DNA of 64,000 nt from Cheiracanthium punctorium (taxonomy: Eukaryota > Arthropoda > Arachnida > Araneae > Cheiracanthiidae). Under the pieces are notes generated by a model, which was not told the DNA's origin, searched no databases, and saw only the letters and a list, made by a program, of their open reading frames with translations. Positions 4,884-63,876 of this stretch are shown piece after piece. The position numbers and the translations under genes were made by a program. The stretch spans positions 372,001 through 436,000 of the forward strand of contig JAWZYV010001807.1 of assembly GCA_038373885.1 (NCBI GenBank), read 5' to 3'. How positions within the stretch are numbered: position 1 is the stretch's first letter; every line of letters starts with the position of its first letter.

Positions 4884-5140
4884 CCCTTTAACGCGCAGTG
4901 TTCCCGCTCTGGGAACACCAAACTCTGACGTTTTGACTGTTGCCAGTCACGAAGAAAGATTTGAGCCGTTGCCAGCGACGACAGCTAGCTGAGGCACAGC
5001 CAGCTGCGTCAAAAAAGGGTCTCTAGATCTGTGGCACGCGATGAACGTTTCGATCGTCCGTCATCTTTCTGGTAGTTAAGTCGAGCGATGGCAACGGCTG
5101 CCCTTTTTCCAGCATTGGGAAAGGGTTGCTCCTTAAAGGG
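4884..5140 (-). mobile_element. TTAA foldback element copy 1 (subfamily I)
   Basis: Flanked by TTAA at 4880-4883 and 5141-5144. The left end CCCTTTAACGCGCAG is followed by a hairpin GTTCCC-GCTCT-GGGAAC (4900-4916). The right end is TTGCTCCTTAAAGGG. Only one full inverted arm (about 5005-5120) is present, so this is an internally deleted copy. TTAA duplication and CCC ends are piggyBac hallmarks. I orient copies with the CCCTTTGAGGC end as left, so this copy is minus. Confidence 0.85.
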
Positions 5141-5697
5141 TTAAATGGTGCGAAATTGCTAAGAATAAATTGTTTCCAAATTTCAGCACAAAATATTGTC
5201 ATCTTCAGGTTCCACAACTCAAGCGAATATATTTCTAGCTTCTTTTTATTAAAATAATAATGTTTAATTAATTAATTGAATAATTAGTTATGCTTTCATT
5301 ATTAAATTGCTTTAATAATTCATTATTATCACATATCATTGCTGGAAATCGTAGATTTAGAAGCAAACGTCGACTTAGGTTCTGAATCAGAAATGGAATA
5401 TACCTCAGAAAATGATGACGATTTTGTTAGTCAGGAAACCAAATGTCGGAAAACGACTGACGATTAGATTCCCTAAATCTCCAAGACAGACCCAATGCCC
5501 GAACTAGCCGTTGTTCTTGATAGAGCAAGTGTATCGGAGTATTAATTATTCAATTAATCAATTAAACGTAATTATTTCAATGGAAATTTATAAAAGCCTA
5601 AAAAAGACACTGGGAATATATTCACTTGAGGTGTGGAACCTGAAGATAGCAATATTTTGAGCATTTGTTCGTATCAGTTTTGCACCATTTAATGACT
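5141..5697. mobile_element. Large foldback element with coding-like centre
   Basis: Left arm 5141-5300 and right arm about 5533-5697 are imperfect inverted copies. Both carry TTAAATGGTGC, CTTCAGGTTCCACA, GAATATATT and TTAATTGAATAATTA in mirrored order. Between them 5342-5467 reads as an open, acidic stretch with DLGSESEMEY and SENDDDFVSQE up to a stop. A second open piece, MPELAVVLDRASVSEY, follows. The second piece resembles a repeat-associated arthropod protein segment of the CDRxGVSDR type; that likeness is from memory and weak. TTAA element copy 1 abuts its left arm at the shared TTAA. Confidence 0.6.
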
Positions 5698-7212
5698 CAG
5701 GCAATGTGAATTTCGAGAAAAGGTGTTTTTCGCTCCACCCTTGTCCACATACCTTTTAAAAATGCCATGAAAATCGATTTTTCAAAAGATGTTCTCAGTA
5801 TTTTTACATTTCTGAACAATATGCAAGAAACCGCATTCAAATATTATATCAGAGATAATAAAATGTTATCCAGTGCATTAAGAACTGAGATGCTATTCCC
5901 TACAAATCGGAATCTTTTCGATTCCAAAAATTAAAAAATAAAAAATAATCCACGATAGATAAAAATAAGGCTAAAGTTTACTTGAATTACACCAAAATAT
6001 ATTTTAATATATTTTTAAATTACAGAAATCCACCCCACCCGCAAACTGTACTTTTGCTTTTAGCAAAATAGTGCGCCTGTATTTTTGGCTTCTTTACAGT
6101 TTCACATGTAAAACGTATTTCTCAGCTATTCAAGATATCAAACAGACATGAAAATAAGTCTTGACTGGGTTGAAAATAAGATCGATATACATAAAGCTTC
6201 AAACTAATTAAGAGTCTATAATTGTTTTCCGCAGTAACAATAAATCACGAAAAACGCAGCCAGCGATTTTTGAAAATAAGGAACACATTAAGTCTGTCAT
6301 TGAACGTCCTTTGCTGCGCTGTTTCCTAACGGAGAAAGAGCTAAGACTGACTTTTTGGTGGCAATCGATTCTTGGAATAAACTGTATCGTATATGAAAAT
6401 GTTTCTTGCATGGAAATAAAAACAGTATTTTTCAATTGAAATAATCACTTAATTGGTATTTACTCTGTTCAGAACAGGCTTTATGATAATTTTGCATAAA
6501 GTGGATTTTGGGAGCATCATTGCAACGATCTTTTCTTTCTATAACGAACATGTTTTACAGATTCTTGAACTCTGGCATTTTTTTATTAACGTAAACTTTG
6601 ATTAAATAATTATAATTTTCTATAGGAAAATTATTTTTCTGCCAAAAAACAATTAGATTTTTTTCGTCATTTGTCACTGTGTTGAAAGTATGCACGATGT
6701 AAAGATAAATTTAAGCAAGAAAGAAAAAGTACGCTAAGCACATTTATCACTAAGCACTTTACGACACAATGTTATTTCGACATGTGGTTCATGAATAGTT
6801 AATGAGTTCATTCCTTCCGTCGCTAAAGTGCGGTTGCAAAGATTTCAGGAAACAGTGACAGTTTGTGATTAGGAGAAGGGACAGGGGTGAACTAGAAGTG
6901 TGACATCGTGAAATTTTGTGTCATTCATAAGTCACCAGATTGAAATATGAATTTTTTTTAATTACCAGAACTTGAGGATGTATCTTTTAATCTCTTGTCT
7001 CTTGTATCTTGTATACACAGAAAAGCAATCGTAAGGATTACGTGTCTTTGCGACAAAAGCAAACTCGCGTAGAAATTCAAAGAATCAGCAACGCTTAAAT
7101 ACTTGTTAACGCTTTCAAACTAAGTCAAAAAGTGCTCAGATTTCGATCTGTCTAATTATCCCAATGGACATCGATTACTTGGAAATTTGCATAGCTGTTT
7201 TCGCAATGTACC
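5698..7212. other. AT-rich sequence; 5698-5760 repeated at 9640-9720
   Basis: 5685-5760 (CATTTAATGA ... GTGTTTTTCGCTCCAC) is similar to 9640-9720, so a dispersed repeat extends past the foldback. From 5761 to 7212 I see no gene, paired termini or RNA signature. Confidence 0.4.
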
Positions 7213-7220
7213 GTATAAAA

Positions 7221-7553
7221 CAGCGGTTCTCAGCCTTTTAACGTCGCGCCCCCCAACAAAGGCTAACTTACGGTGCCTGCCCCCTCACATTTTTCAGCAT
7301 ACATTCAGTTTATTAATCTGTAACAATGAACATTTAGTCGAATTTTCTACAAAATGATGTTTTCAGTAAAATTTGAATGAACATTTTAAGCGAAAATGGA
7401 TATATTTTTGAGTAAAATGAGAATAAATTAGATGATATTTTTAAAAGCATGCATCACTACTCGCTCTTTGGTTTTTCTCACTCTCCCCCCCCCCCCGCTG
7501 CAAACACTCTACGCCCCCCTTTGGGGTCGCGCCCCACAGATTGAGAAACGCTG
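7221..7553. mobile_element. hAT MITE with perfect 8-bp target duplication
   Basis: The left end CAGCGGTTCTCAGCC pairs with the right end ATTGAGAAACGCTG. GTATAAAA flanks it exactly at 7213-7220 and 7554-7561. Eight-base duplications and CAG...CTG termini of this kind are established hAT features. The 333-bp interior is non-coding, with GC-rich subterminal blocks and a C homopolymer near 7484-7497. Confidence 0.92.
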
Positions 7554-7561
7554 GTATAAAA

Positions 7562-8300
7562 AATGATTGTGTACACACCCACTTAAAAAGGTTTTAGAGT
7601 AATATTGAAATTTCTTATTTTAGTTTTGTCAGCAATTAATTAGTTTTTGGAAAAACACATCATTAAGAAGAAATATGAGAAATTAACATATATGTCATAG
7701 TTATTTTTACGGAGAACAATAATGCTAATTATGAAACTGACTCAGGAAATTTGACATACGGTTGAATATTTTTTTGATGATATGTAACAAAAAGGACTAC
7801 CTGTCTTTGAAATGAATAAAAAAACCAAACAAATAGAATTATTAAATAATTTCTTACTGGAAGCGAATTTTTTATGTTTGGAGTTTTCAGTGGAACACTT
7901 TATTTTGTTAGTACAAACTCTTACAGAGATATGGAGCTGGGGGTATTCCATTCAGCAGTCGTGGTTTGTAATTACGTGGCAATATTCTCGAAATGTTCTG
8001 CATTCATCACACTTCAACACACAAAATATTTTGCAACGTTTCTAACGGAGTGGGTGCACGCTAGAGATGAGACGGGCTCAGCAAAAGCCCGAAACCCCGC
8101 ACTCGGGCTCCGTAATCCACGATTCTGTTTGGGACTTGGGCGGACTCGAGCGTGAGAAATTTCTCCTTCATTGAACATGATTTTAAAAAGTGATTCTCAG
8201 AGAAATAAACGTATTTCTATTTTTTAAGAATTGTGTGTCTAAAAATTGATATTGATTTGAGAATTATAATTAATAAGGTTAATTCTCGTGATTAATTGTT
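7562..8300. other. Intergenic sequence with GC-rich patch
   Basis: No gene seen. 8068-8155 is a GC-rich patch (CGGGCTC, CTCGGGCTCC) unlike its surroundings. A similar GGGCT-rich patch occurs at 9600-9670 just after the tandem array, so the two patches may be ends of one composite element. Confidence 0.4.
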
Positions 8301-8311
8301 ATTTATTATTA

Positions 8312-9600
8312 TTATCTATCTATATAATTAAAATTAGACTTTTGTCTGTACATGTCTTGGAATTCAAAAATTTTGCGATTTCTATCCGTTTCAAGCACCC
8401 GGGAATCCGATGCGACCCTCAAAAAAAAGTTTGTCTGTATGTCATTCTGTCGTTCTGTCATTCTGTCATTCTGTCCGTGACGCTTTTTGTGTTTAAGCAT
8501 CACGTAAAAACGACTGAAGCGAATGATATGAAATTGGGTGTCATGATAGGTGGTCACTCAACTTAAAACATAGGCGTCGAATTTTTAAAAAATCTTGATT
8601 GGATTTTGAGATTTTGCGAAAATCTTTTCAAACTGCGTAAATTTGTGTTCAAGTATCACGTAAAAACGACTGAAGCGAATGGCATGAAATTGAGTGTCAT
8701 GATAGGTGGTCACTCAACTTAAAACATAGGCGTCGAATTTTTAAAAAATCTTGATTGGATTTTGAGATTTTGCGAAAATCGTTTCAAACTGCTTAAATTT
8801 GTGTTCAAGCATCACGTAAAAACGACTAAAGCGAATGATATGAAATTGGGTGTCATGATAGGTGCTCACTAAACTTAAAATATAGGCGTCGAATTAAAAA
8901 TATCTTGAGTAGATTTTGAGATTTTGCGAAAATCATTTCAAACTGCGTAAATTTGTGTTCGCACATCACGTAATAACTGCAAAGGTGAAAAAGATGATAT
9001 TTGGTAAAATGATAGGTGGTCACTCACCTTAAACTATAAGCATCTAATTTTTTAAAAAATCGATCAGATTTCGAGAGTTTGTGAAAATCGTTTAAAACTG
9101 AGTGAATCTTTGTTCCCGCATTACATAATAACGACTAAAGCGAATGTTATTAAATTTGGTCACATGATAGATGGTTACTCAACATAAACTATGTCCAATT
9201 TTTTAAACATTTGTATTAGATTTTGAGATTTTGTGAAAATTCTCTCAAAATACGTTTATATTTCTTCAAACATCACGTAATAACGACTAATACAAATGAT
9301 ACGAAATTTAGTGATATGATAGGTAGTTGCTAATCTTAATTTATAGGCGTTGAATTTTTAAAATATTTTGATTACATTTCGAGATGCGAAAATCGTTTTA
9401 AAATGCTGAAATTTTGTTCCAGCATCACGAAATAAAGACTGCAGGGAATAAAACGAAATTGGGTGTCATGATAGATTGTCACTCAACTTAAATTCTAGGC
9501 TTCCAATTTTTCAAAAATGTTGATTAGATTTTGAGAATTTGCGAAAATTATTTCAATATGCGTAAATATTCGTTTGCGCATCACATAATTACGACTTGCA
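8312..9600 (+). repeat. 155-bp tandem array with non-repeated leader
   Basis: A leader at 8312-8497 (TCTATCTATATAATTAAAAT, TTGCGATTTCTATCCGTTT, then GTCATTCT repeats) precedes units marked by CATCACGTAA. Marks start at 8498, 8654, 8810, 8964, 9119, 9271, 9423 and 9579, giving periods of 152-156 bp. The first three units are most alike and later ones more diverged. Leader plus unit recurs on the minus strand at 55880-56200, so this is a dispersed element, not a satellite. The TCTATCTATATAA start is Helitron-like; that assignment is tentative. Confidence 0.85.
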
Positions 9601-10249
9601 CGAGCTCGGGCTTGCACGAATTAAAAGTTTTCGGGTTCGGGATTTAAACATTTAATGATTCGGGCCGTGTGAATTTTGAGATAAACGTTTTCTTCGCTCC
9701 ACGCTAATGTGGACCCTTTAACGAATTCAAAAAACTGCGAACTTATTTCTATTTTTATATACTTATTGCAGTAGAGATCTTTTTTTTTTGCATTAAAACT
9801 GTATCCGACAGTTAAAATTAATTAATGTTTTAAGAACGGCTACATTTTCAACTTTTTCAAATTGCTTTTATTTATTTTTTTACGCAATAGTGCAAAATTT
9901 TAAGCTTACCATCAAAACAGTGTGGATTTGCATACGAAATGAAGAAAAAAATAGGTAACATATATTTAAAGAAACACATTTTCTTTCTTATTTATTAGAA
10001 GATAGTCTACATCTGAGGTACCGACAGAACAAATATTTTGTAGATAGCAGCAGCCGTTACATATGTTTATTAAAAACACCATTTATTATTTACATTCATA
10101 TACACAAAGTATAACGTTTGCGTTATTCGGCGCATCATATTCCCATTCCCTATTTGTACAATACATAAATACAGCTGTACGAATAGGGTCAGTTCTTACT
10201 CTTCTCTCAGTGGCAGATCGCTCTTTCTATGGTTGCAGTCAATGAAACT
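9601..10249. other. AT-rich sequence; repeat fragment at its start
   Basis: 9640-9720 is related to 5685-5760. The rest shows no gene or paired termini. Confidence 0.4.
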
Positions 10250-10345
10250 TTATTCTTCTGAAGAAGGGAAGACATTTTTTGAACTAAACGTGAGTACTGA
10301 TCGATAACAACCTTTTATTTTACAAAGTTTTTATTTTGTTATTTT
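10250..10345 (+). repeat. Retroelement-tail-like motif, copy 1
   Basis: CTGAAGAAG (10258) followed about 30 bases later by AAACGTGAGTACTGAT and then TTTACAAAGTTTTTATTTT. The same order occurs at 46722-46810, where the middle reads GAAACGTACGT. Such CTGAAGAAG ... AAACG junction motifs are common near ends of Penelope-like and some LINE elements; the family here is unproven. Confidence 0.4.
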
Positions 10346-11047
10346 ATTTGCTGAACCTTGATATTTACAAAAATTTTAATTATTTCAAAAAAAAGCTTTT
10401 GTCTTTAATAAAACTGATGCTACAGCAAGGTACTTAAATGAACTACACTGTAAGAAATACCTGTAATTTTACCGCACATATTGCACATATTGCTGAAATA
10501 CCCGCACATATTGCTGTAAAATAATACAGCACAAGTGCTGCAGCATTGTGTGTTGCAAATACACTGACGAAATCACGTAATGACGTTTATAAGCCAATCA
10601 CGAAGGAGCTTGTGCAGCAAACTGACACAGTCTTTAGATCCCAACGTGCTGACGTTACGTTTACCCACACGTTGTGCTGTAATCTAGGTAAATATGTTTT
10701 GAAGTGTATCTTTATCCCTTGAGCTCAACATATTGTCTGAATGTCAAAATTACACACCAAAAATGCTACAGAAAAAGAGTATAATATGTTTGTTTTATGC
10801 GTCGCATCATTATTTAATTATCTTTCTGCATATATTAATGCAGAGAAATTGCATTTGTTACTTCAAATTTTCGTTTCTGAAATATTTTAATGAAACGTAA
10901 AGTAATTTCGAAATGGAAATACGAATAATTAATTAATAACAAATATGGAAATGCAAATACAAGCGTTACGAATTTCATTAATCCCTTGACAATTTTGATT
11001 AGCTACAGAATAAATTTTGCTTAAATAAAGTCCTTCTATGCGCTATT
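10346..11047. other. AT-rich sequence with short CACATATTGC direct repeats
   Basis: CGCACATATTGC or close variants recur three times within 10471-10520, next to TGCTGCAGCA. No gene or termini recognised. Confidence 0.4.
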
Positions 11048-11051
11048 TTAA

Positions 11052-11517
11052 TCCTTTGAGGCGTAACCCTTTCCTAATGCTGAGAAAAGGGCAGCCATTA
11101 CCATCGCTCGACTTAACTACCAGCAAGATGGCGGACGATCGAAACGTTCATCTGTGCTCACAGCCAGCTGTCGTCAAAAAAGGGTCTCTAGATCTGTGGC
11201 ACGCGATGAACGTTTCGATCGTCCACCATCTTGCTGGTAGTTAAGTCGAGCGATTGCAACAGCTGCCCTTTTTTCAGCATTGGGTAATATCTCCAGCTGT
11301 TCTCGCATCCTTCCATTTTTCAGCAGATGTCAGTGCTGTTAAAAATAATCGTGATTTTTTTTTACGAGAAATGACGTGCTAAAAAGTAAAGGATTCTCGT
11401 GGAGCTATGTCACCCGCAACTATTTTTTATAGAAATGAAATCTATTCTTCGTGCTTGTCAACAGTCAAAACGTCAGAGTTTGGTGTTCCCAGAGCTAGAA
11501 CACTGCGCGTTAAAGTG
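11052..11517 (+). mobile_element. TTAA foldback element copy 2 (subfamily I)
   Basis: TTAA at 11048-11051 and 11518-11521. The left end TCCTTTGAGGCG leads into a shortened arm with CCAGCAAGATGGCGGACG. The inverted arm (about 11155-11280) follows, then the unique third (ATCTCCAGCTGTTCTCGC) and the ACGCG end. The subterminal hairpin is damaged (GTTCTA-GCTCT-GGGAAC read inward). The left arm lost its inner part, so the foldback is asymmetric. Confidence 0.85.
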
Positions 11518-11521
11518 TTAA

Positions 11522-11774
11522 CGATTTTACAATAGTTTCAAAAAACAGATTACAGGAAGAATTCATATAAAATTTCGACACCCTTTATCAAGTGTTCCAT
11601 TTTTCAAATAATTCATGTTTTAGTTTAGAAATATGAGTAGCTAAATATTACATAGAAACATAATATTATCCAAAGGAAGCATTTTCGTATGTGTTGTATG
11701 ATGATTAACTGAATAAACTAAAGTAATGATTATTGTTCTAGAGTATTCATCTTGAAGTATTCCGTGAAACGCTA
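11522..11774. other. AT-rich sequence, nothing recognised
   Basis: No gene, termini or RNA signature seen. Confidence 0.35.
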
Positions 11775-11920
11775 TTAGGGAATGCAATCCCGCACTGTTT
11801 TTCGTTTCGCGGGATATCCGGATTGAGATTTCTTGATACCGTGGGACCTCGCGAAATCCCTAGACATAGTCCCATAGTCACGATATTGTCTTCCCGCGGG
11901 ATCGGGATTGCATTCTCTAA
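11775..11920. mobile_element. Short MITE with GGGAATGCAATCCCG termini
   Basis: TTAGGGAATGCAATCCCG at the left is inverted at the right as CGGGATTGCATTCTCTAA with one mismatch. If TA is the duplicated target, the element is 11778-11917. The GC-rich centre includes GCGGGATATCC and CCCGCGGGATCGGG. The superfamily is uncertain (TA-type DNA transposon). Confidence 0.65.
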
Positions 11921-12045
11921 ATGCCATCCACGTGTACTTTCAGAATTTATTAAAATAGTTTTGGATTTACGGAAAACAATTCACGCCATTAAAATTAACC
12001 GAGACCAGTTTTCTTAAAACATTAATAAAAAGAAAGGGAATTATA

Positions 12046-16059: not shown

Positions 16060-16353
16060 ATAAGCTCTCGTCGGGTTGGTAATTAATCTTCCATTGGAAT
16101 TCAAGCCTTGCGAAATTTGTGGCGTCATTTTACTCTTAGTTAATGCAGTTAATTTTCGAACGCATTCTCTGGAAAGACGCAGTCAGTGAGACGCGGAGTG
16201 CTACAAAGATTGTTGAAGTGCTATTTTGCAAGAATAATAGACTTTTAAGTGAGTAAAACGGAAACAGAAATTCGAAACATGATTGGAGAGGCTAGAGAAT
16301 TCATAAATGGACTAACTAGCCGTGTTTGAGGCATTCAGTTGCGCATTGTTTAA
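16060..16353 (+). repeat. Family D repeat, copy 1 (left part)
   Basis: Shared landmarks with copies near 18.3, 23.5 and 27.1 kb are GGAGTGCTACAAAGATTGTT, AATAGACTTTTAAGT, GGAAACAGAAATTCGAAAC, GAGGC, ATTCATAA and TAGCCGTGTTT. TTAA element copy 3 interrupts it at GCGCATTGTT; the remainder (AAGAGTTGAATAGATGA) resumes at 16811. I do not recognise the family. Confidence 0.6.
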
Positions 16354-16808
16354 CCCTTTGAGGCGCAACCCTTTTCCAATGCTGAAAAAAGGGCAGCCGT
16401 TGCCATCGCTCGACTTAACTACCAGCAAGATGGCGGACGATCGAAAATTTCATCGCGTGCCACAGATCTAGAGACCCTTTTTTTGACTGTGCGCAGCTGG
16501 CCGATCTAGAGACCCTTTTTTCACAACAGCTGGCTGTGCCGCACAGCCAGCTGTCGTCAAAAAAGGGTCTCTAGATCTGTGGCACGCGATGAACGTTTCG
16601 ATCGTCCGCAATCTTGCTGGTAGTTAAGTCGAGCGATGGCAACGGCTGTCCTTTTTTCAGCATTGGGCGTGCTAAAAAGTAAAGGATTCTCGTGGAGCTA
16701 TGTCACCCGCAACTATTTTTATAGAAATCAAATCTATTCTTCGTGACTGGCAAGATTCAAAACGTCAGAGTTTGGTGTTCCCAGAGCGGAACACTGCGCG
16801 TTAAAGGG
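16354..16808 (+). mobile_element. TTAA foldback element copy 3 (subfamily I)
   Basis: TTAA at 16350-16353 and 16809-16812. CCCTTTGAGGCGCAACCC begins the left arm. The centre has a duplicated fragment (GATCTAGAGACCCTTTTTT occurs twice, near 16465 and 16504) before the mirror arm starts at GCACAGCCAGCTG. Of the unique third, the part that usually follows CAGCATTGGG is lost: the element jumps to CGTGCTAAAAAGTAAAGG. Confidence 0.88.
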
Positions 16809-16812
16809 TTAA

Positions 16813-18279: not shown

Positions 18280-18542
18280 GAAGTGAAATGTTACTAAATC
18301 CGTGATGCGAAAAAAACGAATTCACTCTACTCAATACTTCATTTCGGTTCGTTCCGTAATTGCTTCTGGAGAAGGAAAAGAGGATATAAACCGGATGTAA
18401 TTCATGGAAATTCTACAAGGATTGTTAATGCGCCGTTTAACAAGAGCAATAGACTTTTAAGTTAATAAGGCGGAAACAGAAATTCAAAACACGGCTGAGA
18501 GGCGAGGAATTAAGTCAAGTAGCCGTGTTTGAAGTTATTTAA
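18280..18542 (+). repeat. Family D repeat, copy 2
   Basis: Shares ATAAACCGGATGTAATTCATGG, ACAAGGATTGTTAA, AATAGACTTTTAAGTTAATA, GGAAACAGAAATTCAAAAC and TAGCCGTGTTTG with copies 1, 3 and 5. It is interrupted by TTAA element copy 4 and resumes at about 18867 (ATGTTAAGAGTTGGAGAGATGA). Confidence 0.6.
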
Positions 18543-18862
18543 ACCTTTAAGGCGCGGTGTCCTCGCTGTGAGGACACAACATTTTGGATGTTTTGATTTA
18601 CGAAGAATAAATTTCGTTTCAGTGAAATACTTACGGAGAACACTTAGATAGACTGTACAATATCGAAAAAGTGCAATCGTTGCCACCGCATGATTCAACT
18701 ACCAGAAAGATGGCTGTCGATCGAATCGCCCACAGCGTCCCACGGAGCTAAGGAACCTTTTTGACAGAGGTGGCTGTGCGGTGCCGCACAGCCAGCTGCA
18801 GTTTTTCGATGACTTTTCGACTGAACTTTTTGGATAGTTGAAAATGGTTGCGCTTCAAAGGG
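18543..18862 (-). mobile_element. TTAA foldback element copy 4 (subfamily II)
   Basis: TTAA at 18539-18542; the right flank is TCAA (18863-18866), one change from TTAA. The ends ACCTTTAAGGCGCGG and TTGCGCTTCAAAGGG are family-like. The subterminal hairpin is GTCCTC-GCTGT-GAGGAC (18559-18575). The stem matches subfamily I by compensating changes. The arm reads ACTACCAGAAAGATGGCTGTC. Confidence 0.75.
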
Positions 18863-19151
18863 TCAAGCCATGAATTGATCAATGTTAAGAGTTGGAGAGA
18901 TGACAAAACGATCTAAAAAATATGAAACTTTTCAAATCCAAAATGAGGAGATGGTTTAATTGTAATCGTAATTTATGATATATGTATAAGAAAATCGATA
19001 TCAAAAAAGTTTTACAAAACTGCATGGATAAATAAATGCACATAGCAATGTAAGATGAACATCTTTTGGGTAAAATTAAAAAAATTGGAAGAACTACAAG
19101 GAATATTCATTCCGGATAAGCAAACATAGAGCAAATAGATAATTATTTTGG
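18863..19151. other. End of family D copy 2, then AT-rich sequence
   Basis: Nothing recognised beyond about 18910. Confidence 0.35.
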
Positions 19152-19390: not shown

Positions 19391-19402
19391 ATCGATAGTT
19401 AA

Positions 19403-19858
19403 CCCTTTGAGGCGCAACCCTTTCCCAATGCTGCAAAAAGGGCAGCCGTTGCCATCGCTCGACTTAACTACCAGCAAGATGGCAGACGATCGAAACGTTC
19501 TTCGCGTGCACAGATCGTCAAAAAAGGGTCTCTAGATCTGTCGCACGCGATGAACGTTTCGATCGTCCGCCATCTTGCTGGTAGTTAAGTCGAGCGATGG
19601 CAACGGCTGCCCTTTTTGCAGCATTGGGCAATCTATCCAGCTGTTCTCGCATTCTTCCATTTTTCAGCAGATGTCAGTGCTGTTAAAAATAATCGTGACA
19701 ATTTTTTTGTGGCAAATGACGTGCTAAAAAGTAAAGTCTCGTGGAGTTATCTCACCCGCAACTATTTTTACAGAAATCAAATCTAATCTTCGTGACTGGC
19801 AACAGTCAAAACGTCCGCTTTTGGTGTTCCCAGAGCGGGAACACTGCGCGTTAAAAGG
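19403..19858 (+). mobile_element. TTAA foldback element copy 5 (subfamily I)
   Basis: TTAA at 19399-19402 and 19859-19862. CCCTTTGAGGCGCAACCC starts it. The two arms have lost their innermost part: the first arm goes from GCACAGATC directly to GTCAAAAAAGGG. The third third and the ACGCG end with its GTTCCC/GGGAAC hairpin are complete. Confidence 0.88.
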
Positions 19859-19862
19859 TTAA

Positions 19863-26142: not shown

Positions 26143-26976
26143 CCCTTTGAAGCGCGATGGTTGCGCTGTGAAACCACCTTATTTTAGTGCTTTCACTGCT
26201 ACTCACAAAAGAATACAGTTAAATGGTCTCAACGCTAAAATAGTGCAGCCGTTGCCATCGATCCATTTAAATGCCAATAACATGGCGGTCGATCGAATAG
26301 CCCATCTGGCCCCACATCTGAAGAAGTTTTCTGACACAGCGGCTGAGCATGGTGTTGGTAGTTAACCCTTTAACGCGCAGTGTTCCCGCTCTGGGAACAC
26401 CCAACTCTGACGTTTTGACTATTGCCAGTCACAAAGAATAGATTTGATTTCTATAAAAATAGTTGCGGGTGACATAGATCCACGAGAATCTTCTACTTTT
26501 TAGCACGTCATTTCCCGTAAAAAATGGTCACGATTCTTTTTAACAGCACTGACATCTGCTGAATACTGGAAGAATGCCAGAACAGCTGGATAGATTGCCC
26601 AATGCTTTAAAAAGGGCAGCCGTTGCCATCGCTCTGCTTAACTACCAGCAAGATGGCTGACGATCGGAACGTTCATCGCGTGCCACAGATCTAGAGACCC
26701 TTTTTTTGACGACAGCTGGCTGTGCGCGGGCACAGATATCTGCGTCAAAAAAAGGGTCTCTATAGATCTGTGGCACGCGATGAACGTTTCGATCGTCCGC
26801 CATTTTGCTGGTAGTTAAGTCGAGCGATGGCAACGGCTGCCTTTTTTTCAGCATTGGGAAAGGGTTGCGCCTCAAAGGGTTAAATGGATCGATTGCAACT
26901 GCTGTACTTTTTCAGCGTTGAGCCGTGCATCCAGTTGGTCTTCGATATTGATGTGAAAATGCTTACGGTTCAAGGG
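26143..26976 (-). mobile_element. TTAA foldback element copy 6 (subfamily II), split by copy 7
   Basis: Left half 26143-26361 begins CCCTTTGAAGCGCGATGG with hairpin GGTTGC-GCTGT-GAAACC (26159-26175). It contains GCCGTTGCCATCGATCC and ACATGGCGGTCGATCG. Its right half (26884-26976) runs ATGGATCGATTGCAACTGCT ... GGTTCAAGGG. Copy 7 sits between the halves at TTAA. The left flank TCAA and right flank TTTA are eroded TTAA sites. Confidence 0.75.
26366..26879 (-). mobile_element. TTAA foldback element copy 7 (subfamily I), nested
   Basis: TTAA at 26362-26365 and 26880-26883, both inside copy 6. It carries the ACGCG end with its GTTCCC-GCTCT-GGGAAC hairpin, the unique third, then the two arms and GGGTTGCGCCTCAAAGGG. 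The centre between arms is GCGCGGGCACAGATATCTGC instead of the usual GCACAGCC palindrome. Confidence 0.88.
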
Positions 26977-28911: not shown

Positions 28912-28915
28912 TTAA

Positions 28916-29200
28916 CCCTTTAACGCGCAGTGTTCCCGCTCTGGGAACACCAAACTCTGACGTTTTGACCGTTGCCAGTCGCGAAGAATAGATTTGATTT
29001 CTATAAAAATAGTTGCGGGTGACATATAGCTCCACGAGAATCCTTTAACTTTTTAGCACGTCATTTCCCGTAAAAAAATTGTCACGATTCTTTTTTAACA
29101 GCACTGACATCTGCTGAAAAATGGAAAAATGCGAGAACAGCTGGATAGATTGCCCAATGCCGAAAAAAGGGCTGTCGTTGTCATCGCTCGATTTAATTAC
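28916..29200 (-). mobile_element. TTAA foldback element copy 9 (subfamily I), truncated
   Basis: TTAA at 28912-28915, then the ACGCG end with an intact hairpin and the unique third as far as CATCGCTCGATTTAATTAC. Both the foldback centre and the GAGGC end are missing. The break is followed by a short direct repeat, GCGTTTTGTCACT at 29201 and 29221. Confidence 0.85.
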
Positions 29201-42947: not shown

Positions 42948-42951
42948 TTAA

Positions 42952-43451
42952 CCCATTGAGGCGCAACCCTTTCCCAATGCTGAAAAAAGGAGCAGCCGTT
43001 GCCATCGCTCGACTTAACTACCAGCAAAATGGCGGACGATGGGAACGTTCATCACGTGCCACAGATCTAGAGACCCTTTTTTGACGACAGCTGGCTGTGC
43101 CGCACAGCCAGCTGTCGTCACAAAAGGGTCTCTAGATCTGTGGCACGTGATGAACGTTTCCATCGTCCGCCATTTTGCTGGTAGTTAAGTCGAGCGATGG
43201 CAACGGCTGCCCCGTTTTCCAGCATTGGGCAATCTATCCAGCTGTTCTCGCATTCTTCCATTTTTCAGCAGATGTCAGTGCAGTTAAAAATAATTGTGAC
43301 ATCTGTTTTACGAGAAATGACGTGCTAAAAAAGTAAAGGATTCTCGTGGCGCAACTATTTTTATAGAAATCAAATCTATTCTTCGTGACTGGCAACAGTC
43401 AAAACGTCAGAGTTTGGTGTTCCCAGAGCGGGAACACTGCGCATTAAAGGG
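42952..43451 (+). mobile_element. TTAA foldback element copy 10 (subfamily I), fullest copy
   Basis: TTAA at 42948-42951 and 43452-43455; 500 bp. Layout: CCCATTGAGGCGCAACCC end, arm 1 (about 42972-43100), arm 2 in mirror (43101-43229), a unique third (CAATCTATCCAGCTGTTCTC ... TCAAAACGTCAGAG), and the ACGCG-type end with hairpin GTTCCC/GGGAAC. The arms meet at GGCTGTGC-CGCACAGCC. Variant bases such as GCAAAATGG and ATCACGTG occur in both arms. No coding sequence; mobilisation would need an outside piggyBac-type transposase. Confidence 0.92.
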
Positions 43452-43455
43452 TTAA

Positions 43456-48110: not shown

Positions 48111-48114
48111 TTAA

Positions 48115-48390
48115 CCCATTTATGCCTAGTGTCCCTTTTTTGGGACGGCATTTTTGCTATTAGTCGAAAACGTTATTTATTTTTCCTAGCCTTTTTTCAT
48201 GAGTATTGAGCCTCAACTCTACAAAATATTTTAACATGAGCAAGTAGGATGTTGATATTTCTATTTTTATGCATAATGATTTTAAAAGAAATCATCCCTT
48301 GTTCAAGAAGTTGACATCAGAAATTTATCTACTGTTTCTGTTATCAGTAAAAATCGAAGAAAGTCGCAAAAATATCCAGGCACAAATGGG
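48115..48390. mobile_element. Second piggyBac-type MITE family
   Basis: TTAA at 48111-48114 and 48391-48394. CCCATTTATGCCTAG at the left mirrors the right end (CCAGGCACAAATGGG), matching known piggyBac-type CCCATTTGTGCC termini. Just inside the left end lies GTCCC-TTTTTT-GGGAC (48131-48146), in the same place as the hairpin of the foldback family. 276 bp, non-coding. Confidence 0.85.
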
Positions 48391-48394
48391 TTAA

Positions 48395-50635: not shown

Positions 50636-50872
50636 TTTAAATGACCAATTTCCGGTACTTTTTGGAAAGAATGTAAATAAACAACTGCATAAACCGAAAA
50701 AAGATCCCAAGGTGGAAAAAGTGCTGCCGCAACCATCGATCGATTTAACTATAGGCAACATGATGGTCGATCAAATCGCCAGTCGTACGCCACAGAACCA
50801 AAGAGCTTCTATGGCACAGCTGACTGAGTGGTACGCGATTGGCGACTCGATGGACCGTCATATTTTAGTTAA
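50636..50872 (-). repeat. Subfamily II TTAA-element unit E1
   Basis: Begins TTAAATGACCAATTTCCGG and ends ATTTTAGTTAA. Contains CCGCAACCATCGATCGATTT, CAACATGATGGTCGATC and the mirrored pair ATCGCCAGTCGTACGCCAC / GGTACGCGATTGGCGACTCG. Repeated at 51322-51558 directly after TTAA element copy 11. Confidence 0.8.
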
Positions 50873-51321
50873 CCCTTTAACGCGCAGTGTTCCCGCTCTG
50901 GGAACACCAAACTCTAACGTTTTGACTGTTGCCAGTCACGAAGAATAGATTCGATTTCTATAAAAATAGTTGCGGGTGACATAGCTCCATGAGAATCCTT
51001 CACTTTTTAGCACGTCATTTCCCGTAAAAAGAACTCACGATTATTTTTAACAGCACTGACATCTGCTGAAAAATGGAAGGATGCCAGAACAGCTGGAAAG
51101 ATTGCCCAATGCTGAAAAAAGAGCAGCCATTGCCATCGCTCGACTTAACTACTTACAGCTGGCTGTGCCCACGCACAGCCAGCTGTCGTCAAAAATAGGG
51201 TCTCTAGATCTGTGAAATGCGATGACCATTTCGATCGTCCGCCATCTTGCTGGTAGTTAAGTCGAACGATGGCAACCGCTGCCCTTTTTTCAGCATTGGG
51301 AAAGGGTTGCGCCTCAAAGGG
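50873..51321 (-). mobile_element. TTAA foldback element copy 11 (subfamily I)
   Basis: TTAA at 50869-50872 and 51322-51325. It carries the ACGCG end and hairpin and the unique third. A first arm is cut short at CTTAACTACTTACAGCTGGC, the palindromic centre, a full second arm and GGGTTGCGCCTCAAAGGG follow. It sits exactly at the junction of two tandem E units. Confidence 0.9.
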
Positions 51322-51619
51322 TTAAATGACCAATTCCTGGTACTTTTTTGACAGAATGTAAATGAACAACTGCATAAACTGAAAAAAGACCTCCAAGGTG
51401 GAAAAAGTGCTGCCTCAACCATCGCTCCATTTAACTATAGGCAACATGGTGGTCGATCAAATCGCCAATCGTACGCCACACAACTTAAGAACTTCTGTGG
51501 CACAGCTGGCTGTATGGTACGCGATTGGCGCCTCGATGGACCGTCATATTTTAGTTAAATCCAATGATAGCTGCGGTTACACTTTATCAGCGTTGGACAG
51601 TCTACCCAGTCATACTTAG
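51322..51619 (-). repeat. Subfamily II TTAA-element unit E2 and its right arm
   Basis: 51322-51558 repeats unit E1 with scattered differences (for example GATGGTCG to GGTGGTCG). It continues into TTAAATCCAATGATAGCTGC and TATCAGCGTTGGACAG, which correspond to the right half of copy 6 (TTAAATGGATCGATTGCAAC ... TTTCAGCGTTGAGCC). Confidence 0.7.
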
Positions 51620-58110: not shown

Positions 58111-58345
58111 CCTACCATGGCCGAGTGGATAAGGCACTGAACATAGTTGATGGCTGAAGTCTGAAGGTTCACTGTCCTGACCTACCTTGCGTCTGTCGAT
58201 TTAACGGTCTGGAATTTCGGTCGTTATCTCCAGATGGAACGTGAATACGAGTTAGAACTTTGAAAAGTTCTCTGCCCAAGGCACCCTCCCTTATGCCGAT
58301 AGCTTTTCCATAGCTTTGCTTTGACGCAACACACATATGTTGTTG
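58111..58345 (+). mobile_element. tRNA-derived SINE, copy 4
   Basis: The head CCATGGCCGAGTGGATAAGG is the best A box in the window. The body TCTCCAGATGGAACGTGAAT, TCTGCCCAAGGCACC and CCGATAGC match copies 1-3. It ends in a TTG simple tail (58339-58360), a usual SINE 3' end. Confidence 0.85.
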
Positions 58346-58378
58346 TTGTTGTTTTTGTTGTCGTGTCCATGCATAGAC

Positions 58379-58612
58379 GAATCCATGGAAAGAGGGGTGC
58401 AGTGCCCCCGAGGGGGTTGGACTTCTACTTGTTGATCCCTAATTTTGAACCGATTCCAGATGAGGGACCAACCACCACCTGAAATCGGCACCCCCAGAAT
58501 CCATGGAAAGAGGGGTGCCAGTGCCCCCGAGGGGGTTGGACTTCTACTTGTTGGTCCCTAATTTTGAACCGATTCCAGATGAGGGACCAACCACCACCTG
58601 AAATCGGCACCC
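58379..58612 (+). repeat. 118-bp tandem duplication
   Basis: GAATCCATGGAAAGAGGGGT starts at 58379 and again at 58497. The units are nearly identical (GATCCC versus GGTCCC and a one-base gap), so the duplication is recent. GC-rich (GTGCCCCCGAGGGGG). Confidence 0.92.
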
Positions 58613-58623
58613 GCTGGCTTTTC

Positions 58624-59001
58624 CGACGCAGCTGGCTGTGCCGCACAGCCAGCTGTCTAAAAAGGGTCTCGAGATCTGTAGCACGCGATGAACGTTCCGG
58701 TCGTCCGCCATCTTGCTGGTAGTTAAGTCGAGCGATGGCAACGGCTGCCCTTTTTTTCAGCATTGGGAAATCTATCCAGCTGTTCTCGACATTCTACCAT
58801 TTTTCAGCAGTTGCCAGTGCTGTTAAAAATAATCGTGACCATTTTTTTACGGGAAAGGACGTGCTAAAAAGTAAAGGATTCTCGTGGAGCAATGTCACCC
58901 GCTACTATTTTTATAGAAATCAAATCTATTCTTCGTGACTGGCAACAGTCAAAACGTCAGAGTTTGGTGTTCCCAGAGCGGGAACACTGCGAGTTAAAGG
59001 G
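58624..59001 (+). mobile_element. TTAA foldback element copy 12 (subfamily I), left-truncated
   Basis: Begins at the foldback centre (CAGCTGGCTGTGC-CGCACAGCCAGCTG). It then has arm 2, the unique third and the ACGCG-type end with hairpin GTTCCC/GGGAAC; TTAA at 59002-59005. Arm 1 and the GAGGC end are lost at the border with the 118-bp duplication. Confidence 0.88.
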
Positions 59002-59005
59002 TTAA

Positions 59006-59832
59006 ACCTCCTCAGGATTGAGAGAAAATTTTACTCCAAACAGCGCTTCAATCAGTCCTGTAAGAAGAAATACATATTTTAAACATTGTCTTTTATATAC
59101 ATAAATATTAACACTGCTTTTCGAAATTTCGATGTGTAATTAATTTGGCCCAGAAAATGCTTTCACTTTCATAACTCTGTCGCGGACTTAGTTTTAAGCA
59201 ACTAATTTATCAAACTATCTTCCAGTTTACTGGAGGCTTAAAACTGTCTCCTCCAATGTTTACCGATAATTGCGTCTTAAAATACTAGCATAGAAGTTAC
59301 TATTAATACACTTATTCAATTAAACCGTCGCGTTGTAGACGCAATTAGTTAAATTTTATCTTATTGAAATATTTCACAGTTCTTATTAGTCAATAAATAA
59401 ATCGTACTTTTCTTGCAGTGAAAGTATGTTAAGATTTGAATAATTTACTTTTTAAACACTTTCCAAGAATTTTGCAAATTGCTTGAGGTTTTATTTGTGC
59501 CAGACTGTATTCAAGCTGTCGTAAGCATGCATACGGGCCTCAAGTTCTTATTATCTGTTATTGAGAAATGCAATTGCTTGCTTCCTCGAAAAATATATAT
59601 ATAGTGTGTAATAGTATTTATAGATTTACAATATATTAAGAAGTCAGGACGGCAATTGCTCGTAGTGTGTCTTAGTGACTATAATATCTTTCAAACAAAC
59701 CGGAATAGCATTTAACATCCGCTAAACTAAAATCCTGGCGAAGTGGTGCATGAGGATTTTAGTTTGGTGGAGCTACAGATCCAGTTGAACTTGTTTATAG
59801 CTACAATTCTCTTATAACGTTAAGCGTTAATA
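59006..59832. other. AT-rich sequence, nothing recognised
   Basis: AAATCCTGGCGAAGTGGTGC and GGATTTTAGTTTGGTGGAGC near 59730-59775 form a loose inverted pair (ACTAAAATCC / GGATTTTAGT). No gene seen. Confidence 0.4.
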
Positions 59833-60967
59833 CAGGGTGTCCAGCAAATAACACCCTGAATTAAAAATTAAAAATCTCAAAAATAAAGGTCAATAGGAAA
59901 ATTCAGTAAACGGTATATACTGGGTATGTTTATTTTGTAATCTCTAAGCATTTTATACAGAAGTTTTAAAATAGTGGTTACAATATCTACTAACAGGCAG
60001 TGCTGAACAGAAATTTACCGTGGGGTGCCCCCATTGTTTTACTAACCTCACCATTCGTCATGTTTTAACCTCATGCACTGCTTTTAATAATTTTGACCAA
60101 ATACTTTGATTTTACTATTTTTACGCATAGTCTGCCGCAGTATGTCCTTTCTAAACCTTGTGCCATTAAACACAAACTAGCTAACTGAACAGAGATTTCC
60201 TTTAAGGCGATAGACATAACTGTAGACGTAATTTTAATGTTAAAAGACACAATCTTTATGTTGAAAATTAAAAATTTATGTACTTTATGTTAAAAAATCT
60301 TCTACAATGGGGAGGAGGGGCGTAAAACGCCCAAATAATCCCTTGCGTAGATCATGCATGAGTATGAACTCATTCTCAGCAAGCATTTACAGCATTATTT
60401 TTTCAAAATGTCGAACGTTCGACTTAGAGCGGAGTCGCAAAATTATAATGATCACTTTCTTTTCAAAGGCCAGACACTAACCATTTTATTTTGGGAGCAC
60501 CCAGTGGGCGGCTAGCGTTAAACCCTATGAAAGGACTCACAAGTCAACACCCAAACCTAAGTCAGGACTCGATCCCTGGTCCAAGGTGCTACAAAAGGCC
60601 ACACAAATAAACAACTCAAGGTAGTCCAGTGTCTTGGGATGATTCTGGTAGACAATATATCTCAATGTTCTCTACAGAAAGTAATCACAAGGAGTCAGAT
60701 CGGGATCAAATATGGATGCCTACTGTTACAACGCCATCTGTTAACGGTTCTTCTAACTACTACTTCGAAAATTATGTGTAAAATTCTTACAATTTACATA
60801 ATAAACATACCGTTTGCAGCACCCTTCTCTTGGTCTTTATTTTTCATATTTACTTTCCGAACATGTACCATGTAAAGGAAAGTATTGTAATCATGAAAAC
60901 ATTCGACTTCGAGATTTTTTAAATTTTGAAATTAGGATGTTATTTGCTAGGTAACCTATATATCCTG
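59833..60967. mobile_element. DNA transposon relic with CAGGGTGTCC-type termini
   Basis: TA then CAGGGTGTCCAGCAAATAAC at the left. The right end read inward is CAGGATATATAGGTTACC then TAGCAAATAACATCC and AATTT. The right terminus has about a dozen extra bases. A reversed fragment of the hairpin-tailed element (60845-60920, TTTACTTTCCGAACATGTAC) lies just inside the right end. Confidence 0.55.
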
Positions 60968-61589
60968 TATCATTCCTGATAGAAGAGAAACCCAGTTAAA
61001 ACTTCATTCGTTAAAGCGTCATAAATAATTATCTGGGGCCTAATTAATTTTCAAACACATAAATAAAATTCTCCGTTCCAGTTTAAAAGATTTTATTGAT
61101 ACTACTGATACACTATTTCCTGGACTACTTCTAAAATTAGCTGTCAGTGTAGTTTAGCCTCTATCGGCCACACAAAAAAAAACACGCACTAAAGGATAGA
61201 ATCAAGTAACACATAGCTCTAGTTTAAAAGCATGAAACTAAGAAGTAGGTATAGCTAGGTACTGCAGAAACGCTAACCACAGTTTCGATTTCAGTACAGA
61301 AAAATTTATTTGTAAGCCCCAATCCCCCAGTGAATTTGATATTTTAGAAAACCTTCAACATAAACAAAGATTTGCTAATGTATATTTCGCCGTTCTTTGT
61401 TCGATTGTTGGGAATCCCTTACCGTTTCCACTTAGCTTTGCACATAACCTCTCTTTTCCTCTCCAACTATGTTTGCTGTATGCAGCTCTTGTCCCTGAAT
61501 ATGTGTATCTACAATACTAGCAATTTTGCTTGGCCCATCATCGGCTGGCTACGTGGCCGGTGGTAGCCTGAGCAAACTTGCTAGTAGAG
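60968..61589. other. AT-rich sequence, nothing recognised
   Basis: A 64-codon frame at 61372-61566 matches nothing I know. Confidence 0.35.
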
Positions 61590-61591
61590 TA

Positions 61592-62958
61592 CAGTGTCCC
61601 CCAAAAGGATGAAAAAACACTTTAATTCTTTATTCATTAGAGATAAGTGGGCAATTTAAATTGAAAACAATGATAAAAATAAGGCAGGTAAAAAAGGCTA
61701 CGTTAAGAAAAAATTTGTCTAGTTAATTTTCGAAAAGTGACATTTTAAAAATATGTATACTATCCCCCTAGAGACATAAAAAATCTAGAGTGACTCCACT
61801 CGACTTTCCGAACATTACGCATTTAAATAAATTTTAATCGATGAATAATTCAAACATATATACGAAATTGAAGCTCAATCGAATGCGCCGTTTAAACGCT
61901 AGCGCACTTTCAAGAATTTCTCCCAATACGCTATAATGTAAAAGAAATATTTGTCGTAGCCCTGTAGAAAAACTATAAAACCTATACACATCAAAATCAA
62001 TACCGGTCTTACGATGGTGGTTTATAACATGTATACCCATTTTGAGCTCAATCGAATGTACCGTTTAAACGCTAGCGCACTTTCAAGAATTTCCCTCATA
62101 GGACATAATTTAAAAGAAATCTTTGACGTAGGTCTGTAAAAAAACTATAAGTACTATACACATCAAAATCAATACCAGTCTTGCGATCTTGGTTTGTAAC
62201 ATATATACCAAATTTGAGCTCAATCCAATGCCCTGTTTAGGAGCTATCGTGTTCACTCACATACACACACACATACGCACATACATACATACATCTCGTA
62301 GGAATAGCATAAATGAATTCAGAAGACCTCATACACCAAAATCTCGAAGTCGAATTTTTTCATGATTACAATACTTTCCTTACATGGTACATGTTCGGAA
62401 AGTAAAAATTAGGTAAATGCGCCCCCCATACATGAGGTGATGCACAAAATTTCAGTCTTCATCATAAAATGTCTCGGACATCTTTCAGATATTCACAATT
62501 CAGAGAGATCGTCAGGAGATGTACATGAATTTGAATGCAAAATTTTATTGCTAGACTGCGAAACATTGTTTTCTTTTGTAATTTCTGTACGAAACCTGAA
62601 ACGAGATCATTTGATGGGCATCATGACTCAAAGTGATATTTTTTTTTCTTTCAAAAGCCATTGAAAAGTGGTTTAAGTCAGCATACATTTATCTTTATAA
62701 ACACTTTTCAGAATTTAATTCTCAAATTTTGTCTATCCCGTCTTAAGTAAAGGGCACTTTTTACTGGCTGGGATTGTTTTTCATGTGAGAGTCGTGTACA
62801 AATATAAAAAGTATCATTTTCTGAAAATTAACGAGCGAAATATTTTCTTAACTTGGACTTTTTTCTAGTTTATTTTCAACATTTTATCAGTTTTCATTGC
62901 CCATTTATCCCTAACGGATAAAGAATTAAAGCGTATTACAACATTTTCAAATACCCTG
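61592..62958. mobile_element. Tc1/mariner-type element with long TIRs and nested insert
   Basis: TA at 61590-61591 and 62959-62960. The left arm (CAGTGTCCC, CACTTTAATTCTTTATTCAT, GATAAGTGGGCAAT, AAGAAAAAATTTGTCTAG) is mirrored by the right arm (CAGGGTATTTG, CGCTTTAATTCTTTATCCGT, GATAAATGGGCAAT, AAGAAAATATTTCGCTCG). 61805-62412 is a separate element nested within. No transposase frame remains. Confidence 0.75.
61805..62412 (+). mobile_element. Hairpin-tailed element with tandem units, nested
   Basis: Units of about 180 bp marked by GAGCTCAATC(G/C)AATG (61871 as GAAGCTCAATCG, 62042, 62215), each followed by CGTTTAAACGCTAGCGCAC or its decayed form. Then come a CACATACACACA stretch, ATCTCGAAGTCGAATTTTTT, the hairpin TACTTTCC/GGAAAGTA (62376-62402) and AAAATTAG. 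Same design as 22153-23085. Confidence 0.65.
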
Positions 62959-63235
62959 TATGCCGAAGCACATCTTTTTGCCGCCTCATTCCCTCACAGA
63001 CGATGGTAAGTCATACTTACCGAACATATACTCTCATTGGAGTCGGCAATATTGTTCATTTTGTGTTAATTGTTTTACATCAAGCTACGAATTCTATGAT
63101 ATGTTGGATAAAATCACTTCATTCATCGAGGTTGAGCTTTCTTTATACTTGTTACTAACATTTTCCATTAAGTTTGAAAAGTGTTCAGAATTTCGGTTTG
63201 TCTGTCTGTCTCTCTGTCCGACCGTCGTGCTTTAA

Positions 63236-63876
63236 CCCTATAATGCAGTTCCCAGAGCGGGAACACCAAACTCTGCCGTTTTGACTGTTGCCAGTCACGA
63301 AGAATAGATTTGATTTCTATAAAAATAGTTGCGGGTGACATAGCTCCAAGAGAATCCTTTACTTTTTAGCACGTCATTTCCCGTAAAAAAGTGGTCACGA
63401 TTATTTTTAACAGCACTCACTTCTGTTGAAAAGTGGTAGAATGCGAGAACAGCTGGATAGATTGCACAATGCTGAAAAAGGGCAGCCGTTGCCATCACTC
63501 AACTTAACTACCAGCAAGATGGCGGACGATCGAAACGTTCATCGCGTGTCACAGATCTAGAGACCCCTTTTTTGACGACAGCTGTCTGTGACCGCGCACA
63601 GCCAGCCTACCATACTGTTTCTGCAGTTTTTACCTTGTTCCCAAAGAATTTATTTTTCGACATTCCTTAAACCTTTGAGGTGCAACCCTTTCCCAATTAT
63701 GAAAAAAGGCAGCCGTTGCCATCGCGGCGCACAGCCAGCTGTCGTCAAAAAAGGGTCTCTCGATCTGTGGAACGCGATGAACGTTTCGATCCTCCGCCAT
63801 CTTGCTGGTAGTTAAGTCGAGCGATGGCAACGGCTGCCCTTTTTTCAGCAGTGGGAAAGGCTTGCGCCTCAAAGGG
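63236..63876 (-). mobile_element. TTAA foldback element copies 13/14, broken at the centre
   Basis: TTAA at 63232-63235, then CCCTATAATGCA and a hairpin whose loop is inverted (GTTCCC-AGAGC-GGGAAC, 63248-63264). The unique third and arm 1 follow up to GCGCACAGCCAG at about 63605. 63606-63728 is foreign to the normal layout: 61 unrelated bases, a TTAA, ACCTTTGAGGTGCAACCC and a short arm piece. Arm 2 resumes at GCGCACAGCCAGCTG and ends CTCAAAGGG, followed by TTAC. Confidence 0.8.

Follow-up and report, generated by a model that had tools for sequence, protein, structure and literature searches.

In piggyBac, each protomer of the transposase dimer carries a zinc-containing cysteine-rich domain (CRD) at its C-terminus, and the two CRDs bind a palindrome that spans bp 17-33 of one transposon end; the two-fold axis lies in the middle of the site, where the minor groove is narrowed at about bp 25 and the DNA is bent by about 40 degrees (PMC7351741). 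In the left end of the Trichoplusia ni element, this site is a 19-bp palindromic internal repeat (PMC7351741). The CRDs of piggyBat from Myotis lucifugus, which have a different fold, bind an imperfect palindrome 3 bp inside a GCGGGA motif (bp 11-16); the motif pair recurs at bp 55 and 99, i.e., every 44 bp, and the right end possesses no such palindrome (PMC11707139). At about bp 25, the piggyBat DNA is bent by more than 90 degrees (PMC13405395, a preprint). Subterminal inverted repeats are likewise described for the human elements MER75, MER85, and Looper and for invertebrate piggyBac-like elements (PMC12324416, a preprint). Here, we analyze a 64,000-nucleotide stretch of the genome of the spider Cheiracanthium punctorium (contig JAWZYV010001807.1, positions 372,001 to 436,000; referred to as the window), in which two families of miniature inverted-repeat transposable elements (MITEs) carry a palindrome just inside their left ends. 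An earlier inspection (the original prediction) had viewed these palindromes as hairpins kept by compensating base changes. Our data indicate that the "hairpin" is very probably a two-sided duplex docking site for a dimer of transposase CRDs. It is most likely a site of a known kind, present here in unusual variety, since its axis is nearly fixed and its letters change among relatives. The original prediction knew of no such hairpin described for piggyBac-type ends; palindromic CRD sites are, however, on record for piggyBac and piggyBat (PMC7351741, PMC11707139, PMC13405395), as are the subterminal repeats mentioned above (PMC12324416).

Palindromes at the Left Ends of Two TTAA Element Families

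We number each end from the first base after the TTAA (bp 1). Read directly from the window, the dyad of the main family is GTTCCC-GCTCT-GGGAAC at bp 17-33 (positions 4900-4916); in its full extent, it reads GTGTTCCC-GCTCT-GGGAACAC and covers bp 15-35 with its axis at bp 25.0. Copy 4, a member of subfamily II, carries GTCCTC-GCTGT-GAGGAC (18559-18575), with pairs 19/31 and 21/29 altered on both sides, and copy 6 carries GGTTGC-GCTGT-GAAACC (26159-26175), with pairs 18/32 and 20/30 altered on both sides and a mismatch at 21/29. The dyad of the second family (the 48111 MITE), GTCCC-TTTTTT-GGGAC, occupies positions 48131-48146, that is bp 17-32. The original prediction had described these four palindromes correctly. 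Its claim that the last one lies at the same distance from the tip is true of the start at bp 17 but not of the axis, which, with a spacer of 6 nt, falls at 24.5 instead of 25. In both families, the dyad hence occupies about bp 17-33 with an axis near bp 25. As single-stranded DNA, the dyads at 4900 (z -5.9) and 18559 (z -4.4) fold much better than their dinucleotide shuffles; z is -3.6 for the dyad at 48131 and a weak -2.2 for that at 26159.

Both elements have the attributes of the piggyBac superfamily: TTAA is present on both sides of 4880-5144 and of 48111-48394, and the terminal inverted repeats begin with CCC (CCCTTTAACGCGCA and CCCTTTGAGGCGCA in the main family; CCCATTTATGCCTA and CCCATTTGTGCCTG in the second). 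The right ends of the main family have 12 of their first 14 bases in common with the left ends (CCCTTTGAGGCGCA versus CCCTTTAACGCGCA), and the palindrome at bp 15-35 is absent from them. A scan of the window with the left-end motif located left and right ends of the main family on both strands, and the elements and dyads of the window are as follows:

4880..5144, plus strand: main-family MITE, 265 bp with both TTAA
4898..4918, plus strand: dyad bp 15-35, GTGTTCCC GCTCT GGGAACAC, axis 25.0, left end
11483..11503, minus strand: dyad whose 5' arm bears two changes; probable MITE 11048-11521
16775..16794, minus strand: dyad minus one base in the 5' arm; probable MITE 16350-16812
18539..18866, plus strand: subfamily II MITE (copy 4); the far TTAA is TTGA on the minus strand
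18557..18577, plus strand: dyad GTGTCCTC GCTGT GAGGACAC, pairs 19/31 and 21/29 double-changed
19824..19844, minus strand: consensus dyad, left end of probable MITE 19399-19862
26158..26176, plus strand: dyad TGGTTGC GCTGT GAAACCA with one mismatch (copy 6)
26380..26400, plus strand: consensus dyad, left end of probable MITE 26362-26883
28930..28950, plus strand: consensus dyad, left end at 28912
43417..43437, minus strand: consensus dyad, left end of probable MITE 42948-43455
48111..48394, plus strand: second TTAA MITE family; transposase-bearing relative on contig C1853
48131..48146, plus strand: dyad GTCCC TTTTTT GGGAC, axis bp 24.5
50887..50907, plus strand: consensus dyad, left end of probable MITE 50869-51325
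58967..58987, minus strand: consensus dyad, left end at 59005
63248..63264, plus strand: dyad with its 5-nt spacer inverted in place, GTTCCC AGAGC GGGAAC

In a cluster of 46 TTAA-bounded pairs, in which overlapping loci may have been counted twice, at least 10 of 14 end bases were common. A de novo search of 352 kb for TTAA elements with matching ends yielded 61 elements in five clusters, each of which had already been recognized. Six transposase queries revealed no transposase fragment in the window or in the other retrieved loci of more than 500 bases.

In the dyad at 63248-63264, AGAGC stands in place of GCTCT; about four bases are lacking from the flank on the tip side, and the flank on the inner side is normal. 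Such an inversion could arise if a polymerase switched templates between the two arms.

Paired Changes within the Main Family

The genome (2.53 Gb in 15,171 contigs) contains 26,213 occurrences of the exact 17-mer dyad and 37,691 of the left anchor TTAACCCTTTNANNCGCNNTG, which demands only T16 and G17 of the stem. We collected 107 left ends including that of the 48111 MITE, and 106 of these represent the main family; removal of three copies with fewer than five of the eight pairs left 103, among them 89 distinct ones. Summed over the eight pairs of these 89 copies, the covariation score amounted to 0.437 at centre 25.0 and to no more than 0.060 at 12 other centres between 22 and 28, which bears out the notion of paired change at a fixed place. 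The covariation scores of pairs 18/32, 19/31, 20/30, and 21/29 exceeded those of all 500 shuffles (the mutual information of pair 20/30 was equaled by two of the 500), and no compensated change was found at pairs 15/35, 16/34, 17/33, and 22/28 of the distinct copies. Together, the 106 copies provide 848 pair cells: 728 with the consensus, 89 changed on one side, 24 changed on both sides and paired, and seven changed on both sides and unpaired. Shared descent forms part of the covariation signal, since unpaired columns covary by subfamily as well (e.g., 21 with 26, and 26 with 31).

For the genome-wide frequencies of individual variants, the first 100 listed places per query were transcribed by hand and totals were extrapolated from them. 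When position 18 is not T (5,990 places), the listed combinations at 18/32 are A.A (76), A.T (12), G.T (5), C.A (3), G.A (2), A.G (1), and C.T (1). The broken pair A.A would accordingly be found in about 4,550 copies and the repaired pair A.T in about 720, a roughly six-fold difference. When position 20 is not C (1,205 places), we counted T.G (50), A.G (15), G.C (12), G.G (12), T.A (5), A.A (2), and one each of A.C, T.C, T.T, and G.T; when position 20 is C and position 30 is not G (1,336 places), C.A (65), C.T (18), and C.C (17) were present. Extrapolation gives about 600 copies with T.G and about 870 with C.A.

These counts have a bearing on the idea that the palindrome acts at the RNA level, as a stem within the mRNA leader of the transposase. 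The dyad does lie upstream of the transposase frame in the transposase-bearing families, and five of the seven unpaired cells at bp 16-21 across 15 families are G-T, with one A-C and one C-T (G-T versus A-C, p 0.22). However, the position of the dyad is tied to the tip of the transposon instead of to the reading frame, and MITEs devoid of coding capacity retain it. A functional RNA stem or cruciform would tolerate wobble and require pairing; T.G does not surpass C.A at pair 20/30 and A.A is abundant at 18/32, although this G-T test is weak, as the changes may reflect decay after insertion. Nor is there a clear excess of G-T over A-C in the 106 copies (21 versus 15, p 0.41). We consider an RNA stem highly improbable.

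The paired changes could also be mutational and not selected. Polymerase template switching in imperfect inverted repeats is described as a process that homogenizes the arms and inverts spacers (PMC8604942); it would copy a change from one arm to the other in one step, and the inverted spacer at 63248-63264 and a 49-bp fold-back-like element (see below) are what it would leave behind. Moreover, C30 accompanies G20 in 12 of 25 listed copies and is found in only two of 75 others (p 3e-7). Yet homogenization should affect every change, and the complementary partner is present with G20 in 12 of 25 copies, with T20 in 5 of 57, and with A20 in none of 18; among the listed copies, no association of T20 with A30 was seen (5/57 versus 2/43, p 0.7). 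This uneven compensation suggests one amplified lineage at pair 20/30 rather than general homogenization. Furthermore, template switching alone cannot explain why many families have differing palindromes at bp 24.5-25. While we deem it quite unlikely that this process accounts for the paired changes, it may help the site to change.

Position of the Dyad Axis in 20 Transposon Families

A search with the transposase domain PF13843 provided 3,515 first-look candidates. We scored 116 of these; some contained stops, and many possessed open transposase frames of 550-680 amino acids. Left ends were assigned through a TTAA and a matching right end (families A-E and G), through the limits of the alignment between copies (family H and the family on contig C5701, and as support for A-D), or through a TTAACC-type end upstream of the frame (F, I-M, and P-S). 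The tip limit of C5701 rests on two copies that are 98.8% identical over 509 bases from the tip. The resulting set of 20 families includes both families of the original finding and family F (locus L102), whose palindrome was already apparent when the family was accepted and whose left end had no right end matched to it; family N (L137, L144), which had been spotted through its palindrome, was excluded. Of the 11 transposase clusters among the first 30 loci, two (L100, L123) yielded no left end, and neither did the stretches read for C5811, C7709, C11561, and C5257; L143 and L148 are represented by fragments.

When 60 centres were scanned, a unique best dyad at 24.5 or 25.0 emerged in 15 of the 20 families, mostly with different letters. 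Removal of the two families of the original finding leaves 13 of 18, and omission of F as well leaves 12 of 17. Binomial probabilities are 7e-13 for 15 of 20 and 5e-10 for 12 of 17; these values assume that the families are independent, which is only partly true, and they overstate independence because the transposases within the set are related. At bp 16-21 of all 20 families, 69 of 120 positions pair at centre 24.5 and 60 of 120 at centre 25.0, compared with 26-35 of 120 at seven other centres. The stems differ (GTGTTCCC, GTGAGCCC, GCCCGA, CGTACC, TCACG, TGTTGCGT, CCGTTTGC), and the spacers range from 1 to 8 nt among the families whose axis lies at 24.5-25.0, as exemplified by the following dyads:

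L102: GTGAGCCC-TATTC-GGGCTCAC
L117: GCCCGA-GTCCAGT-TCGGGC
L125: AACCCGAG-TTAT-CTCGGGTT
L142: CGTACC-CTATAC-GGTACG
C9555: TGTTGCGT-TG-ACGCAACA
C5701: CCGTTTGC-ACTGT-GCAAACGG
C1853: AGCGTCCCAA-TT-TTGGGACGCT

The left end of the transposase-bearing element on C1853 closely resembles the left end of the 48111 MITE. The expectation that an autonomous parent would carry the same hairpin was borne out for this relative, and 12 other transposase-bearing families possess the dyad too; among the ends examined, none belonged to a transposase of the main family.

It is scarcely conceivable that chance, or the inheritance of a single ancestral palindrome, has produced this pattern. The related families A-E do have the half-site CCCG in common, as shared ancestry would predict. 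However, different palindromes are found on one axis in families whose transposases are only 29-36% identical (A-E versus F, G, and I, and the latter three among themselves, in comparisons among A-I). With respect to chance, covariation at centre 25.0 in the main family is seven times that at the next best centre tested.

The original prediction had held that the fold itself matters, as would be the case if a cruciform or a single-strand hairpin were recognized by the transposase or by a host factor. Perfect copies of the dyad form stable single-strand DNA folds (-7.5 to -8.4 kcal/mol), the in-place spacer inversion together with a fold-back of two left ends suggests that the arms sometimes pair with each other, and such structures have been proposed for the binding of PGBD5 in a preprint (PMC12324416). 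But the axis is nearly constant across families, whereas stem and spacer length vary, and the broken form at pair 18/32 is commoner than the repaired one. Moreover, the CRDs of the solved relatives bind duplex DNA (PMC7351741, PMC11707139); the piggyBac and piggyBat complexes were built on short linear duplex oligonucleotides that are unable to extrude. Taken together, we find recognition of the fold very unlikely.

The fold-back just mentioned is found at L043 (G000:C1:2664768-2664898), where a 49-bp element between two TTAA consists of two left ends that have one dyad in common, with CACG and CGTG as immediate flanks. It probably arose by a fold-back event at the palindrome.

Transposases and Their Cysteine-Rich Domains

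The 577-amino-acid frame of L102 matched the solved structures of piggyBat (9c0f, E 4e-39, residues 127-576, through the CRD) and piggyBac (6x67, E 1e-33). Its structure, predicted with an alignment in which L102 was joined by 45 of 120 listed homologues (46 proteins), had a mean pLDDT (predicted local distance difference test) score of 78.6, and the best PDB matches of this model were the same piggyBat and piggyBac entries (4e-28, 2e-26). Throughout the 46 rows of the alignment, four aspartates of L102 (D240, D316, D426, and D429) do not vary. The piggyBac transposase has a DDD catalytic triad, and alignment to piggyBac suggests that the invariant aspartates include the catalytic ones. All seven transposases that we scanned, representing six families, matched PF13843 and the zinc-finger model zf-Tnp_2 (E 0.0012 or better), the zinc-finger match being above the curated cut-off in five of them. 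The cysteine-rich C-termini of 15 families align with that of piggyBat, among them G, P, and Q, which show deviations. Among the matches listed for a transposase from this genome, the closest named homologues are from spiders (Araneus, Stegodyphus), followed by a tick (Ixodes). Some of the open piggyBac-type frames are near-identical copies, which suggests recent activity of several families.

In piggyBat, R543 and E545 contact C19, G-19, and C-20. If the numbering of the PDB chain is six ahead, as we assume in placing these two residues in our alignment, an R-x-E motif occupies the loop by which C19 and G20 are read in piggyBat itself, in families A-E, and in S. C19-G20 occurs in six of the seven sequences with R-x-E (the exception is S) and in two of the 11 without it (p 0.013). 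This association provides a first lead to a recognition code, and it is a lead only, because A-E form one clade and S is without a clear dyad.

A Candidate Duplex Site for a Transposase Dimer

By analogy with the piggyBac and piggyBat structures, one CRD from each protomer of the transposase dimer would bind each half of the palindrome as double-stranded DNA, with about 6 bp per side; contacts would be made at bp 16-21 and 29-34, and the DNA would be bent around bp 25. The core of the transposase would bind the outermost 16 bp or so, and bp 1-14 are nearly alike at both ends of the main family (12 of 14). Because the strong palindromes that we found sit on left ends, the two ends would be distinguishable; CRD binding might contribute to their pairing. 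Several families appear to have another site some 44 bp inward of the first, as is the case in piggyBat. A nearly constant dyad axis is what one expects of a duplex site that is read by a protein dimer. In this respect, the pointer of the original prediction to transposase binding gains support. Since one protein would read both halves, a change in the specificity of the CRD would shift both half-sites alike and resemble compensating changes in a stem.

The families studied here resemble piggyBac in their TTAA target, in the position of the palindrome (bp 17-33) and of its axis near bp 25, and, where a transposase was found, in its putative C-terminal zinc CRD, L102 matching both by sequence and by fold; the printed LE35 oligonucleotide of piggyBac has its axis at 25.0 in our scoring. 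Unlike the situation here, the piggyBac repeat is present on both ends at different distances, and its letters differ; the eight right ends from this genome carry only A/T-dominated or short dyads near bp 25, with one 5-bp dyad at 27.0. With piggyBat, which ranks first among the PDB matches of L102 in both sequence and fold, they have in common the left-end palindrome, a similar pattern of zinc ligands in the CRD and probably also, in a subset of families, additional sites (a second and a third) at a spacing of about 44 bp. In contrast to piggyBat, the palindromes are mostly better and vary between families, and the main family does not repeat the site at +44. Short palindromes immediately internal to the ends are also found in MER75, MER85, Looper, and invertebrate piggyBac-like elements, but for these, hairpin or cruciform forms are considered and no fixed axis is given in the accessible text (PMC12324416). 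In the literature searched, most subscription papers lying outside it, we found no statement of a fixed dyad axis across piggyBac families.

Several observations weigh against a CRD-dimer site. The best dyad of family R lies at 23.5, S offers a tie only, and H, K, and M have no clear dyad near bp 25. The families are in part related, with 50-69% protein identity among A-E, 56% between H and I, and 55% between L102 and C5701; the remaining pairs within A-I, the set in which all were compared, have 29-36%. The main family's own transposase was not found among the ends examined. The imperfect palindrome of piggyBat, with five of eight pairs at 24.5, is not ranked first by our scoring (24.5 scores 3, and the top two centres score 4). 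In three of eight right ends (those of C, D, and E), a single dyad at 24-26 outranks all others, and in a fourth (A), a dyad there shares the top score; all of these are either short or dominated by A/T. At 5144, the right end of a main-family copy carries a dyad of 5 bp at 27.0. Finally, a dyad at 67.5-70 belongs to the two best inner dyads in eight of the 19 families with sufficient sequence, a count that is given without a chance level and in which one of the eight (C5701) consists of A/T only.

A further-reaching proposal is that the genome harbors a natural library of piggyBac-type elements in which the CRD and its palindrome have changed in concert while the axis stayed nearly fixed, with a recognition code that can be read by comparison, and that template switching between the arms alters both half-sites in one step and thereby speeds the move to new specificities; we regard this as rather unlikely. 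The CRD-dimer reading predicts that most piggyBac-type left ends carry a dyad about 24.5-25 bp from the tip that is read by the transposase CRD. With many open transposase frames beside differing palindromes, CRD specificity, left-right asymmetry, and the co-evolution of dimer and site become directly testable, and the families may supply pairs of transposases and ends that do not cross-react for genome engineering.

Right Ends and Inner Repeats

We had entertained the view that right ends are free of dyads; it was qualified in the light of the A/T-dominated dyads near bp 25 in three of eight right ends and of the dyad at 27.0 at 5144. The right ends of L110, L117, L125, and L127 contain T-runs followed by A-runs near bp 20-30, and those of L110, L117, and L125 have A/T dyads near bp 46-47; these tracts are possibly bendable.

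Words repeated at a distance of 43-45 bp were present in 5 of 16 left ends scanned, and L142 has three dyads, at 24.5, 68.5, and 112.5; these spacings are similar to the 44 bp of piggyBat. The inner dyad of the main family is centred at 58.5 and not at +44: within the left end at 4934-4949, TGACTG TTGC CAGTCA forms a second dyad that is not a copy of the first site. By eye, the leaders of the C1853 and C5571 families (L134, L138, L146, and L145) appear to contain an inverted internal copy of the left-end motif together with its palindrome.

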